A DNA stretch of 64,000 nt from Xanthostigma xanthostigma. Its lineage: Eukaryota > Arthropoda > Insecta > Raphidioptera > Raphidiidae. Under the pieces are notes generated by a model. That model made no database searches. It saw only the letters and a program-made list of their open reading frames with translations, and was not told the DNA's origin. Each line of letters opens with the position of its first letter. Positions within the stretch are counted from its first letter, which is position 1. Below are positions 8,761 to 55,768 of this stretch, one piece after another. The stretch is from contig OY754469.1 in assembly GCA_963575645.1 (NCBI GenBank), positions 13,224,001-13,288,000 of the forward strand, given 5' to 3'. The translations under genes were made by a program, and so were the position numbers.

Positions 8761-9286
8761 AATTTTTTTATGTTCTTCGAGAATCAGATTAGAAAAGTTC
8801 AACTGTAGTTTCGGATTTTACTATACATCCAGAATGACCGAATTGATGTCAATTTTCAATACACGTAGTCTATTATGACGTGTATAGTTTCTGAGTGTTT
8901 GTAGAGCACTTTGGATCAGCTATAGCCGTTTGCATTCTAAAACAAACACTTAACTAAAATGTTACACTGCAGTGAGGTGTTCTCATAAACACTGGAGGCA
9001 GTGTAGAGAGAGAGAACCCTTCCAAAAGCTGAAGTGCAACAAATATACGTCAATGTGCAAAGAGTTAAAACCATTACTGCAGATCCGGACTTTGAAAACT
9101 TTTGCATAAGTTATATTAAATCAGACAATAAATAAAATTATCGACCAACTTTTCAGACAAATATATTAACAAAAAATATATAAATTTAATACATTAACGT
9201 TTAATTTTATTTATTGAAGAGTTCTAATCAGACTTTAATCAAAGATTTGTATATTAAATTAGATTTGACTCAAAAAAGCTATGCTG
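8761..9286. other. Spacer, no feature recognised
   Basis: No open frame or window repeat was recognised. Confidence 0.4.
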
Positions 9287-9913: not shown

Positions 9914-10550
9914 TTAAATGAATAAATTGAACGTGATATACAGACAGACAACTAAGTTTCTCTGTGTTAAATTTTCGGCAGTGAACATTAAGAATGAAAA
10001 CTTCGGCCCTGGGCAACGATGCAATAAATTAACATCAAGTGATGGCAAAATACTAAAGAGAAAAGCATTAAGTAAGCAGCAACAATATGTGACGGTGCAA
10101 ATTGCAACCATTTAAGCCAGGAGTCTATAGAAACTAGTGGAATTCCACATAGTAATATTGATAGTATCATTAACAAAGCCAATCATTAACACATTAATCT
10201 AGCAATACACTATACCTACAGTTAATACGTCGTGACAGCAGAAGGGTTCTTTTTTATTTAAATATCATTTAGAATTTTAATGTCACGTCAACGATACATT
10301 ATTTTAGTCCCGACATTTTTTACAGATCTTTCAATATTTGTTATTTATTAACATTTTAACCAGCAGACGATAAAATTAATAAAAAAAACCGGGTCGCAGT
10401 TCCAAACCCTGTCGACAGTATAGTGTATTGGTTAGAGTACGATAACTTGATATTGTGCAAAATATCCATTGGAAGTACCTACACAACTATTATTTTGTTC
10501 AAATATTTGATTAACGTCTGAATAGAACTCTTCAAATTAATTTTATTTAT
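9914..10550. other. Spacer, no feature recognised
   Basis: Open frames of about 65 codons occur on both strands over 9914-10182. They overlap each other and have no recognisable motif. Confidence 0.4.
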
Positions 10551-10551
10551 T

Positions 10552-10580
10552 TGAATATATATATATATATATATATATAA
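10552..10580. repeat. (TA)n microsatellite
   Basis: About 13 TA units lie directly upstream of the tandem array. Confidence 0.9.
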
Positions 10581-29582: not shown

Positions 29583-30111
29583 AAACACAACATTCTTTTT
29601 AGAAAAGTCTAAAATATTTATCCACTTGCGTATCACTCAACAGTTGCTGTATATAAAAATTCTATACATTTTCTGTATACATCGATATATTATATAAAGC
29701 GTCAAGACAGATTGATTGCTGCTGCACATTTATTTTGCTTTTTCCGACAAACACAAAAACCCGCATTAAGGACTGTCGTTTTTTTCCAATAAAAGCCAAG
29801 CATTAATGTTTAGCTGAAAACCATATGAATTGCATAAATATTTTTTTTTTTTTGATAAAATGTGAAATATTCAAATCTTTGATTAGCGTCTGATTGCTCT
29901 TCAATAAATAAAATGTTTTAATTGTTACACTTTCATTCAAAACAGTTCGTAGTAGTATAGTAAATTCTAGATTGTATACAAAACAAAATTTTAATATCAT
30001 TTTGATTGCAAGTTATTGCTTGTTTATTGTTTGTACATCGATATCCTAACAAAATTAATTACATTTTTAATTTATGTATCTTTAAATTATGGTTTTGTTT
30101 TCTCTTTATAT
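29583..30111. other. AT-rich spacer
   Basis: No feature recognised. Confidence 0.4.
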
Positions 30112-36533: not shown

Positions 36534-37412
36534 GTGCGAGATCCAAATGTTTTACAAAACACAGAATGTTTGCTGTATGCGGATGATGTTAAAATATTTA
36601 AAACTGTAAGCGATAGTAATGACTGTGTATTGATACAATCTGACTTAAATAAAATCAACGATTGGTGCCAACTCAACAAATTGTATCTCAATATCACAAA
36701 ATGCAAATGCTTATCTGTCACTAGGAAGCAAAATATAGTAAAATATGATTATTCCATACTTAACATTCTACTTAAGAGATGCGATATTATTAGAGACTTA
36801 GGTGTCACATTTCTGAGCAATCTATCTTTTAAGACACATATAGAAACCTTGGTTAATGATGCATATAGAATCTTAGGACTTATTACTCGTTTTTCAAGAG
36901 ATCTAACTAACATTAATGTTATCTTTATACTGTTCAATTCTTTTGTTAGATCCAAACTTGAATATGCTGCAGTCATATGGAATCCGATGTTTAACTTGTA
37001 CATAAAAAAAATAGAAATGGTTCAAAGCAAATTCCTTAGATTTCTCCATTACAAATTTGAGCACTATTACCCAAAATTTATGCCTTATCGCGATTTAACT
37101 AGCTTTTATAATGTTAAGACACTTCAATGTCGACGAGAGGCTGCACTTTTAATTTTTGCGTATAAAATATTGCATGGATACATTGACAACAGTAGCCTAC
37201 TATCTCAATTCAACATTGTTGTGCCAAATTTGAGAACTAGAAGTAAATGTATTCGTTTCACCACAAGCATAAGACCCACAACTTTGGCTCACGATGGTTC
37301 TCCCGTTGCTCAAATGACTCAATTGCTAAACAAGCATCTGTTTACATTACCAGAGATTGACCTTTTTGACATTGGCCTTCGTAAATTTATGTCTAGCTGC
37401 TATATTAAATGA
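36534..37412 (+). CDS. Reverse transcriptase, C-terminal part, of a jockey/CR1-like non-LTR retrotransposon (5'-truncated)
   Basis: An uninterrupted frame encodes the end of a LINE reverse transcriptase and the downstream thumb and C-terminal region. The catalytic box LLYADDVKIF lies at residues 13-22 (YADD 15-18). It is followed by INDWCQLNKLYLN (41-53), the IRDLGVTF motif (86-93), RSKLEYAAVIWNP (139-151) and IEMVQSKFLRF (160-170), all usual for jockey-superfamily elements. The frame opens at a GTG with no credible start: the endonuclease and N-terminal RT are missing, as expected from 5' truncation on insertion. It ends at TGA, followed by a 3' UTR and an AAATATAAAT tail. The long open frame in AT-rich DNA suggests a fairly recent insertion. 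It cannot be autonomous. Exact clade is uncertain. Confidence 0.88.
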   Translation: MRDPNVLQNTECLLYADDVKIFKTVSDSNDCVLIQSDLNKINDWCQLNKLYLNITKCKCLSVTRKQNIVKYDYSILNILLKRCDIIRDLGVTFLSNLSFKTHIETLVNDAYRILGLITRFSRDLTNINVIFILFNSFVRSKLEYAAVIWNPMFNLYIKKIEMVQSKFLRFLHYKFEHYYPKFMPYRDLTSFYNVKTLQCRREAALLIFAYKILHGYIDNSSLLSQFNIVVPNLRTRSKCIRFTTSIRPTTLAHDGSPVAQMTQLLNKHLFTLPEIDLFDIGLRKFMSSCYIK

Positions 37413-53877: not shown

Positions 53878-54305
53878 CACCGAACGGGGTGGCGTAGTGG
53901 CGAGAGCACTAGACTCGCATTCGGGAGGTACCGGGTTCGAATCCCGGCGGGGACAGATGTGGCTGGAACTTTTTCCTACTGCCTCTCGCCGAAAAACGGT
54001 AATTCTTGTACCGGCCACCTTGTTGAGGTTTTCTATGGTTTCCCCCAACAATTCCAGATAAATATCGAGATGGTTCCTTATTCAAGGCCATAGCCGATTA
54101 TCTCTCAAACTCCATTGCTCAAAATTTGCCTACCTTAGCCGCCTAATGTCCTGAAATTTCTTCATTCATTGCTATTAATTAAGTGGAAGTTTAAAAATGT
54201 AGAAAATAACGGGAAGTGTGATAGATGGAAAATAGTAATGGTGCGAATGGCGTTTGTTATGACATAAAGTCAAAAAACGGACGTTAAACGCATTATTATT
54301 ATTAT
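53878..54305 (+). mobile_element. Full-length tRNA-derived SINE
   Basis: The head is tRNA-like: box A-like GGGGTGGCGTAGTGGCGAG and a B box in a perfect T arm, CCGGGTTCGAATCCCGG. The body runs through GCTGGAACTTTTTCC, ACGGTAATTCTTGTACCGGC, AAATATCGAGATGGTTCC, TTCAAGGCCATAGCCGAT and TTAAACGCATTATT. It ends in an (ATT)n tail. AATTGATAAGT (53867-53877) and AATTAATAAGT (54306-54316) are an 11-bp target duplication with one mismatch. This is the reference copy for the fragments at 16.74, 29.19 and 30.44 kb. Open frames here are not coding. Confidence 0.9.
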
Positions 54306-54494
54306 AATTAATAAGTTCGGGGCAGATAGCTAATTTTTAGAGAAGACGTATTAATTAATTATAAACTGCTATCTACCCGAGAGAAAACGGGTGAGGCATC
54401 ATAAAATTTAATTTTTTTTTAATTTTTCAATTACGCCATACATTTGGAAATTTCAGATGATAATAAGAAGAAATCCTTTCGAAAAAATGTTTAC

Positions 54495-54535
54495 TTATGA
54501 AGCGCTTTCGGCCATATCAGTCCATCTTCATAATG
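54495..54535 (-). ncRNA. Hammerhead-ribozyme-like motif 3 (degraded)
   Basis: Minus strand: TGAAGA, T, GGAC, TGATAT, GGCC, GAAA, GCGC, TT. Same plan as motif 4, but the first core C is replaced and stem I does not pair, so it is probably an inactive sister copy. Confidence 0.4.
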
Positions 54536-54746
54536 GATGATTTGGATAATAATAAATTTTATCTCAATAGCGTTAAACATTGCAAATTATAAATTTCAGT
54601 TATTCAGGGACAATTGAGGTTATGTTTGGAATCTGTTTGTCAATCAGTTTGTTGTGGGCGGCCGGTCTGTGATGTGCTTTTTAGTGATAATTTTTGCTTT
54701 TAATTTGTTATGATAATTTTAATGATTTTTTGATCAAAATGGAAAC

Positions 54747-54786
54747 TATTCTGAAGATGGACTGATATGTTCGAAAGCGCTTAATA
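54747..54786 (+). ncRNA. Hammerhead-ribozyme-like motif 4 (best candidate)
   Basis: In order: TATT, CTGAAGA, T, GGAC, TGATAT, GTTC, GAAA, GCGC, T, T, AATA. TATT/AATA pair as stem I and GGAC/GTTC as stem II. CTGANGA and GAAA match the conserved core, and AGCGCT is self-complementary, giving the very short stem III of dimeric Penelope-type hammerheads. Predicted cleavage would be after CTT, before AATA. One unpaired T precedes stem II. Activity is not shown. Confidence 0.55.
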
Positions 54787-54935
54787 AATAAAATTTTTTT
54801 TGGAAAGGATTTCTTCTTATTTTCATCTGAGGCATCATAAATTGCATTTCATGTTCTGCTGAATAATATTAGTGTTTTCTGTCAAACTTTTGCTTAGCTT
54901 GACTCTGATCCCCTCCGCCTCTTTGTAGTATGTTT

Positions 54936-55275
54936 CAAGATTAGATTGTGGATTGTAGAAGCTTAACATCTAAGGTTGTCAGCGTAGTACATTTCATTAA
55001 AAAAGCAAATTTTATTTCAATATTAAAATGAATTGAGGATAGTTTCGAGTATCCGACTCTACATTACCCAAAATTCTTGTTTAATTTGGTTTATATAACC
55101 ACATTCAAGATTAGATTGTGGACTGTAGAAGCTCAACATCTAAGGTTGTCAGCGTAGTACATTTCATGAAAAAATCAAGTTTTAATTCTGTATTAAAATA
55201 AATTGAGGATAGTTTCGGGTATCCGATTCTGAATTACCCAAAATTCTTGTTTAATTAGGTTTATTTAACCGTATT
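54936..55275 (+). repeat. Two tandem ~170-bp units
   Basis: CAAGATTAGATTGTGGAxTG begins at 54936 and again at 55106. CATCTAAGGTTGTCAGCGTA, GAGGATAGTTTCG.GTATCC and AATTCTTGTTTAATT recur at the same 170-bp step. The units are about 90% alike by eye. No coding signal. Confidence 0.9.
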
Positions 55276-55768
55276 CACGAGTTTGAACGATTATTATACA
55301 CACATATACATAAAATTTGACGATCAATAGCTTAGAAAGGTCAACATTGGGCTATTTTCAATCTACTATCTAATTTCAATAATATAATATCATTATTACA
55401 GTAGCTATACACTTACATAAATAGATAATCAACAATATGTTATTTTACATCCATTTTCCAATTAAACATCCATTAGAATATCAAATAAGCATGTTTCAGT
55501 CCGTACGACCTTTAGTTTGAAATTCAATACAGTTGTCAAAATAAGGGGGTTACCATTAAACGCAACTAGCATAGGGGAGATATGTGATTACTGGATATGC
55601 TTAGCATTTGCACGGGGTTGAAGTTGACCCAAACCCCAGCCGCGGATGATTATACACCTGACACGGCACATATACAGGTATATTCAAAAAACTGTAATCA
55701 CGCCGACATATTTTATTTTCACTCCAGCTGCGAACCCAGTTTCGTTCGGACCAAGTTCTGTGTGTATT
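55276..55768. other. Spacer; 55.58-55.77 kb unique and less AT-rich
   Basis: The last 190 bp (GACCCAAACCCCAGCCGCGG...) have no match in the window and continue after the transposon at 56774. They are therefore host or older DNA that predates it. Confidence 0.4.

Follow-up and report, generated by a model that had tools for sequence, protein, structure and literature searches.

Two head-to-head 3′ ends and a single tail in a probable Penelope-like element relic of Xanthostigma xanthostigma

A 422-bp insertion in the genome of Xanthostigma xanthostigma is, with a probability that we put at about 0.87, a decayed, 5′-truncated Penelope-like element (PLE) composed of two head-to-head 3′ ends that were primed on both cut target strands from two start sites. 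It occupies positions 54406–54827 of the 64,000-nucleotide stretch analyzed here, referred to below as the window (assembly GCA_963575645.1, contig OY754469.1, 13,224,001–13,288,000 of the forward strand; G000:C6:13224001-13288000), and the same 623-Mb genome was used for the copy searches. What was observed is an origin in a family encoding reverse transcriptase (RT) and a GIY-YIG domain, head-to-head arms, a tail on one arm, a duplicated target site, and sister copies built in the same way. The PLE family of the window insertion is called family A; a second, apparently younger PLE family, reached via the locus L084, is called family B.

The insertion lies between exact direct repeats, TGAGGCATCATAAA, which form the left (54392–54405) and right (54828–54841) target-site duplications and were identical at 14 of 14 positions in a repeat search. 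The first base or bases of this repeat (T or TGA) match the right end of the element equally well, so that the 13-bp duplication proposed in the initial annotation of this DNA is also valid. That annotation described two inverted segments of about 110 bp. The inversion was confirmed (54453–54534 against 54748–54830, 88% identity over 83 aligned columns) and the length was not, for the matched part is shorter and the left arm measures 125 bp in total (54406–54530), 47 bp of which are unmatched in the right arm. These 47 bp (54406–54452, minus strand; delimited by sequence and nhmmer ends) are the tail of the left inverted arm and include an A/T-rich tip; no tail is present on the right arm. The remainder of the left arm (54453–54530, minus strand; repeat, alignment and profile evidence) is an inverted 5′-truncated PLE 3′ end that stops within the core of a hammerhead-like motif at TGAAGATGG. 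The right arm (54531–54827, plus strand; genome search and profile evidence) is a longer, tail-less 5′-truncated 3′ end. When compared by nhmmer with a profile of the 3′ ends, the arms ended at model positions 364 (left) and 334 (right); the left arm is of the longer end type and the right arm of the shorter. The right arm also retains the last 19 residues of the PLE endonuclease C-terminus (MDDLDNNKFYLNSVKHCKL, then a stop; 54533–54592, plus strand), in the frame that closes the endonuclease open reading frame (ORF) in L080 and L082, and the insertion is thus not free of coding sequence, contrary to what had been stated.

A search of the genome for other copies, and for a linked Penelope-type RT, had been proposed at the outset, and both were found. 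The window insertion as query gave 88 matches in the 40 places that were scored out of 472 candidates. Matches often began near query position 125 and query 1–129 was commonly matched in inverted orientation, from which it follows that the left arm is a second copy of the same 3′ end. In L003, L008, L080, L081 and L082 the unit is preceded by coding sequence that is either intact or frame-broken and that has the GIY-YIG-type segment CGASYIGQTGRNFRTRFKEH or close variants (motif identified by eye); L080 and L081 also have YVDD, and the 355-aa ORF of L080 contains YWRRYVDDICVVYNG. The ORF ends NLNIIMDDLDNNKFYYNSIIHYKF (L082) and NLNIILDDLDNNKFYYNSIIHYKL (L080) correspond to window 54533–54592. 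The L080 ORF is homologous to the 823-aa open ORF of L083 (30% over 262 columns, E 1e-30). L083 (G000:C7:24100000-24104600) is part of a tandem array of another PLE with a 3097-bp period, in which identity is complete over the 1504 bp present twice in this interval and RT matches occur at five successive positions; among the family A copies examined there were no tandem full-length copies. The L083 ORF matched RVT_1 at 7.4e-7 with 29.5 bits, 0.1 bit short of the 29.6-bit cut-off, and GIY-YIG (PF01541) at 0.002 with 18.8 bits, below the cut-off of 22.6. L084 (G000:C9:15659200-15665200) is a 4850-bp palindrome whose arms are 99.9% identical and represent two head-to-head PLE copies, each holding a 728-aa open frame; this ORF and that of L080 were 35% identical over 246 aligned columns. 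A Pfam scan of the L084 ORF gave no RT, and a PDB search had one marginal match, to an RNA-directed DNA polymerase chain (E 0.009). The family of the insertion shows RT in the ORF, a C-terminal GIY-YIG, inverted ends with an optional tail and target-site duplication. Since the same end follows RT and GIY-YIG-type coding in other copies, and since tail, inverted ends and target duplication accompany it, the Penelope-like origin suggested by the initial annotation is supported; the window insertion is an ordinary relic, a correctly delimited PLE insertion.

The 3′-end profile showed that copies end in two groups about 37 bp apart, at model positions 320–346 and 352–370 (near 328 and 365). The two groups agree with the pair of internal RT start sites, and the tail between them, of the Anolis PLE (PMC11167929). 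The de-duplicated single-arm hits of family A (n = 48) comprised 17 with the longer end, 25 with the shorter end and 6 whose end was lost, i.e., a tail in 17/42 readable copies, in a set that is not clean because L017 and L022 each have a small arm in the opposite orientation. The family B “single” copies had a tail in 9/15, again from a set that is not clean, with opposite arms near at least 5 of these places. As neither fraction is clean, we used the bound that, if start sites are chosen at random, no more than half of pairs should have one tail.

Family B was searched with a tail-bearing query (40 places scored of 1480 candidates) and with a tail-less query (40 of 222). Exactly one tail was present in each of the 25 head-to-head pairs with both ends readable (14 obtained via the tail-bearing query, L084, and 10 more via the tail-less query), and in 17/17 pairs for which both arms were listed in the tail-less search; the places C1:34380951 and C6:15938422, where the partner was unreadable, were excluded. 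In family A, 17 of the 19 pairs with both outer ends in reach had one tail. Loci L030, L051, L064, L065 and L068 were excluded from the family A counts as the outer end was lost, and the candidates C6:1090923, C3:41873397, C1:70912799 and C8:44155829, apparently one-tailed in the match tables, lie outside them. A further family B pair is present in the window itself at 9126–9249 (within 9112–9263), outside both counts; its left arm (9126–9202) is tail-less and its right arm (9202–9249) is tailed, and by eye its flanks, TATATTAAATCAGA and TATATTAAATTAGA, form a 14-bp duplication with one mismatch. Tails, inverted ends and extension on both strands are already known for PLEs; a strict one-tail pairing was not found stated as a rule in the literature searched, several key older Penelope papers lying outside that search.

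The flanks of the pairs were compared for shared repeats. An exact repeat of 12–17 bp was present in 24/24 family B pairs tested and was 13 bp long in 12 of them. Twelve of the 18 family A pairs tested had a repeat of 9–15 bp, nine found by script and three by eye (L013, 13 bp; L021, 12 bp; L050, 10 bp). The two arms of a family A insertion also resembled each other, with a mean distance of 0.098 within insertions versus 0.152 between them (16 pairs; 0/20000 permutations as low), which is as expected if both arms were copied from one RNA or from one source copy.

These arrangements suggest how such an insertion may form. The GIY-YIG endonuclease of the element would cut both target strands about 13 bp apart, and both exposed 3′ ends would prime reverse transcription inside the element RNA. 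Use of the outer start site on one strand would produce the left arm with its tail, and use of the inner site on the other strand the tail-less right arm; early stops would have left the complementary DNA (cDNA) of the left arm ending inside the hammerhead motif and that of the right arm ending in the endonuclease codons. Host repair would then join the cDNAs head-to-head and fill the stagger, giving the direct repeat. Within this scheme we infer the priming of both strands in the cell, the involvement of a single complex, and any role of the ribozyme motif. The one-tail pairs and the 12–17-bp duplications fit one complex priming both strands at the two start sites reported in vitro for the Anolis PLE, and one complex that cuts both strands and uses each start site once is the simplest account; the one-tail rule is equally compatible with a fixed asymmetric dimer that carries two RNAs. 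We give about even odds to the fuller version, in which one asymmetric complex (acting on the same RNA or as a fixed-role dimer) leaves one tail nearly always and a stagger of about 13 bp, and in which a folded or self-cleaved template hammerhead stops some of the cDNAs.

Four other explanations were weighed. The head-to-head arms could have come from snap-back self-priming of a single cDNA at a palindrome, an idea discussed for rotifer Penelope in the portion of PMC3846280 available to us, and inner junctions read case by case indeed looked palindromic or near-symmetric in several copies (e.g., L030, L039, L043, L050, L055 and L084). Snap-back should, however, copy the outer end of the first arm, whereas in 25/25 family B and 17/19 family A pairs a tail sets the two outer ends apart, and we consider this origin improbable.

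The initial annotation favored a tiny nonautonomous derivative made almost entirely of ribozyme-bearing terminal repeats; on this reading a small element would be mobilized in trans and would multiply as one piece. The insertion is small, is flanked by a target duplication and consists nearly entirely of terminal sequence, and L002 (C2:26500201-26500601) aligned with query 15–422 at 81% and L020 (C2:62710226-62710634) with query 15–409 at 73%. But among the 40 places scored of the 472 candidates, only the window insertion, L002 and L020 matched most of the composite; the inner breakpoints vary from one copy to the next (also in L002 and L020), and many copies run into endonuclease codons, which points to a single truncated insertion. 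A shared inner junction would be expected of a propagating element resembling a miniature inverted-repeat transposable element or a retrozyme, and the inner junctions differed in the copies examined. We regard multiplication as a unit as very unlikely.

Slightly less credit still is due to the proposal that two independent cDNAs arose from two RNAs with the start site chosen at random in each. Single-arm copies do use both start sites (the family A tail fraction given above), but since no more than half of pairs should then be one-tailed, the 17/17 result for family B has a probability of at most 7.6e-6 and the 17/19 result for family A one of about 2e-4. If the PLE likeness were coincidental and the insertion were a foldback element or DNA transposon bearing terminal inverted repeats, the inverted ends and the flanking direct repeat would be accounted for, but neither the inequality of the ends, of which one has a tail, nor the position of the unit downstream of RT and GIY-YIG coding sequence; this origin is scarcely credible.

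Several results count against reading the window insertion as a truncated PLE primed on both strands. A Pfam scan of the family A fragments, including the truncated L080 ORF, detected no RVT_1 and no GIY-YIG, for which reason the identity of family A was set through the longer relative L083, and no full-length family A copy was present among the copies examined. The family A pair L103 (G000:C9:4858200-4858850) is tailed on both arms and has a shared flank of just 6 bp (ATTCTA), and pair L043 was unreadable for tails. The flank repeat is less regular in family A, where none was found in L002, L005, L039, L040 and L049 among the 18 pairs tested. Arm similarity in family B was uninformative (946/20000 permutations, 13 pairs), and covariation of the hammerhead stems within the family was 0.077 versus 0.081 in shuffles, i.e., without excess. 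Lastly, a rule that the tailed arm is the shorter one, first noticed in family A, failed in family B.

That rule, stated as the tailed arm always being shorter, had fitted 7/7 clearly unequal family A pairs (L001, L002, L005, L013, L020, L040 and L054), all found with the window insertion itself (with its long tail-less arm) or its 3′ part as query. It was dropped, as L100 contradicts it and as the tailed arm in 14 family B pairs was shorter in 4, longer in 6 and equal within one base in 4. L103 was the sole head-to-head pair found with two tails.

Minimal PLE hammerheads have the core CTGANGA..GAAA, and we number positions in the motif (C3, U4, G5, G12) by the standard hammerhead scheme. The right arm has CTGAAGATGGAC...GTTCGAAAGCGCTT at 54751–54782 (plus strand), reading CTGAAGA-T-GGAC..GTTC-GAAAGCGCTT, with the full core CTGAAGA..GAAA, a 4-bp stem II GGAC/GTTC that includes one G-U pair, and a palindromic AGCGCT at stem III. 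The pattern of core, 4-bp stem II and GAAA occurred once in the window, at 54751, whereas 100 first-order Markov sequences contained it 0.07 times per 64 kb, which makes a chance pattern unlikely. The left arm has TGAAGATGGAC...GAAAGCGCTT on the minus strand at approximately 54499–54530; by alignment it is a remnant that begins at TGAAGATGG, so that C3 was lost at the junction along with the 5′ strand of stem I. The claim of a hammerhead-like motif on each arm thus holds in full on the right and in part on the left. The core was conserved in 59 family A copies, the fraction of paired cells being 95.7% for stem II and 74.2% for stem I; these 59 rows were drawn from 111 contexts after removal of 41 chance or other-family matches and of 11 family A copies, among them the window left copy, that were truncated or worn.

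The covariance-model scan suggested with the initial annotation found no hammerhead match in Rfam for 801 bases around the window insertion (E up to 10), for 19 family A loci (E up to 3), or for the second PLE family (E up to 5) with its textbook-like motif CTGAAGAAGATCC..GGATCGAAACGTT. Because this last motif was also missed, the Rfam miss does not discriminate, and the models appear unsuited to the minimal hammerhead form. A conserved hammerhead-like sequence motif is thus supported and, judged from its sequence, is a candidate ribozyme; the step to an active ribozyme is not supported. Stem III, to go by the bases present, could form only between two molecules, via AGCGCT.

Some arm ends coincide with the motif, in few cases that were spotted post hoc. 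The predicted cleavage point in the family B motif is GAAACGTT/AATG; the family B arm L131 begins exactly at this point and L132 within one or two bases of it, and the arms of L098, the window pair at 9202 and C2:2138139 begin at G12 beside stem II or at most one base from it. Family A arms of the window insertion, L040 and L102 begin at U4–G5 of the core. The short family B arms at C3:32765053 and C1:58902819 begin at neither the cleavage point nor G12. At L101 (1–130) a family A insertion directly adjoins the hammerhead-bearing end of another PLE (CTGAAGAAGATCCAAATTCGGATCGAAACGT), and L043 seemingly adjoins a worn hammerhead-bearing PLE end as well.

Known elements were compared from the portions of their reports available to us. 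The present family resembles PAc of Anolis carolinensis, of the Penelope/Poseidon type (PMC11167929), in an ORF with RT and GIY-YIG, a hammerhead motif near the junction of ORF and pseudo-long terminal repeat (pLTR), and an optional tail of 30–40 bp; the PAc tail is the stretch between two internal reverse-transcription start sites, and the purified Anolis protein cuts and extends both target strands in vitro (PMC11167929). For PAc, no strand difference of start sites is reported in vitro, whereas here the sites are split between the arms of one insertion. Another difference from PAc is that in family A GAC and then a stop commonly come after the ATG of CTGAAGATGG (by eye, not tabulated), so that this ATG is unlikely to be an ORF start. 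The accessible part of the report on Adineta vaga Penelope (PMC3846280) describes head-to-head inverted pLTRs, a 31-bp tail that is optional at one inverted pLTR, target duplications and palindromes at the inverted junctions, all as found here; target duplications there are 8, 9 and 10 bp, whereas those of family B are 12–17 bp and mostly 13–14, and, unlike there, most window-type copies examined are short and without RT. As in the minimal PLE hammerheads of PMC6155905, so far as its excerpted account goes, helix III is missing and stem II is short, but here stem I has about 2–4 bp, stem III would be only intermolecular via AGCGCT, and the left copy is broken. Retrozymes (PMC4918200, in part) are likewise small noncoding retroelements with hammerheads, yet they form a defined nonautonomous family whose hammerheads lie in long terminal repeats, whereas the window insertion is one truncated copy of a PLE, its arms inverted.

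The relatives of the window insertion constitute a readable record of PLE integration. The one-tail rule, if true, would assign one of the in-vitro start sites to each target strand and point to a concerted two-strand mechanism, and the positions of cDNA ends relative to the ribozyme offer a way of asking whether the PLE hammerhead is at work while reverse transcription proceeds. The one-tail rule together with the almost constant stagger of family B is the part worth following.

Further repeats were noted in the window. Two other family B pieces, neither with a clear target duplication by eye, are present: at 10499–10552 an inverted tail is followed by a short stretch resembling the tail-less end, and at 29871–29914 an inverted tail is followed by about 11 bp. 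The left flank of the insertion (54106–54306) is a very abundant repeat of about 90% identity (40 places scored of 1423 candidates); no paralogous empty site was found by way of this repeat, the match to which ends near 54306, about 90 bp before the insertion. Just to the right of the insertion, at 54934–55277, a 170-bp tandem repeat is present in two copies (90% matches). A 292-aa open frame at 36534–37412 (plus strand) gave a weak RVT_1 match, under the cut-off, with an E of 0.001.
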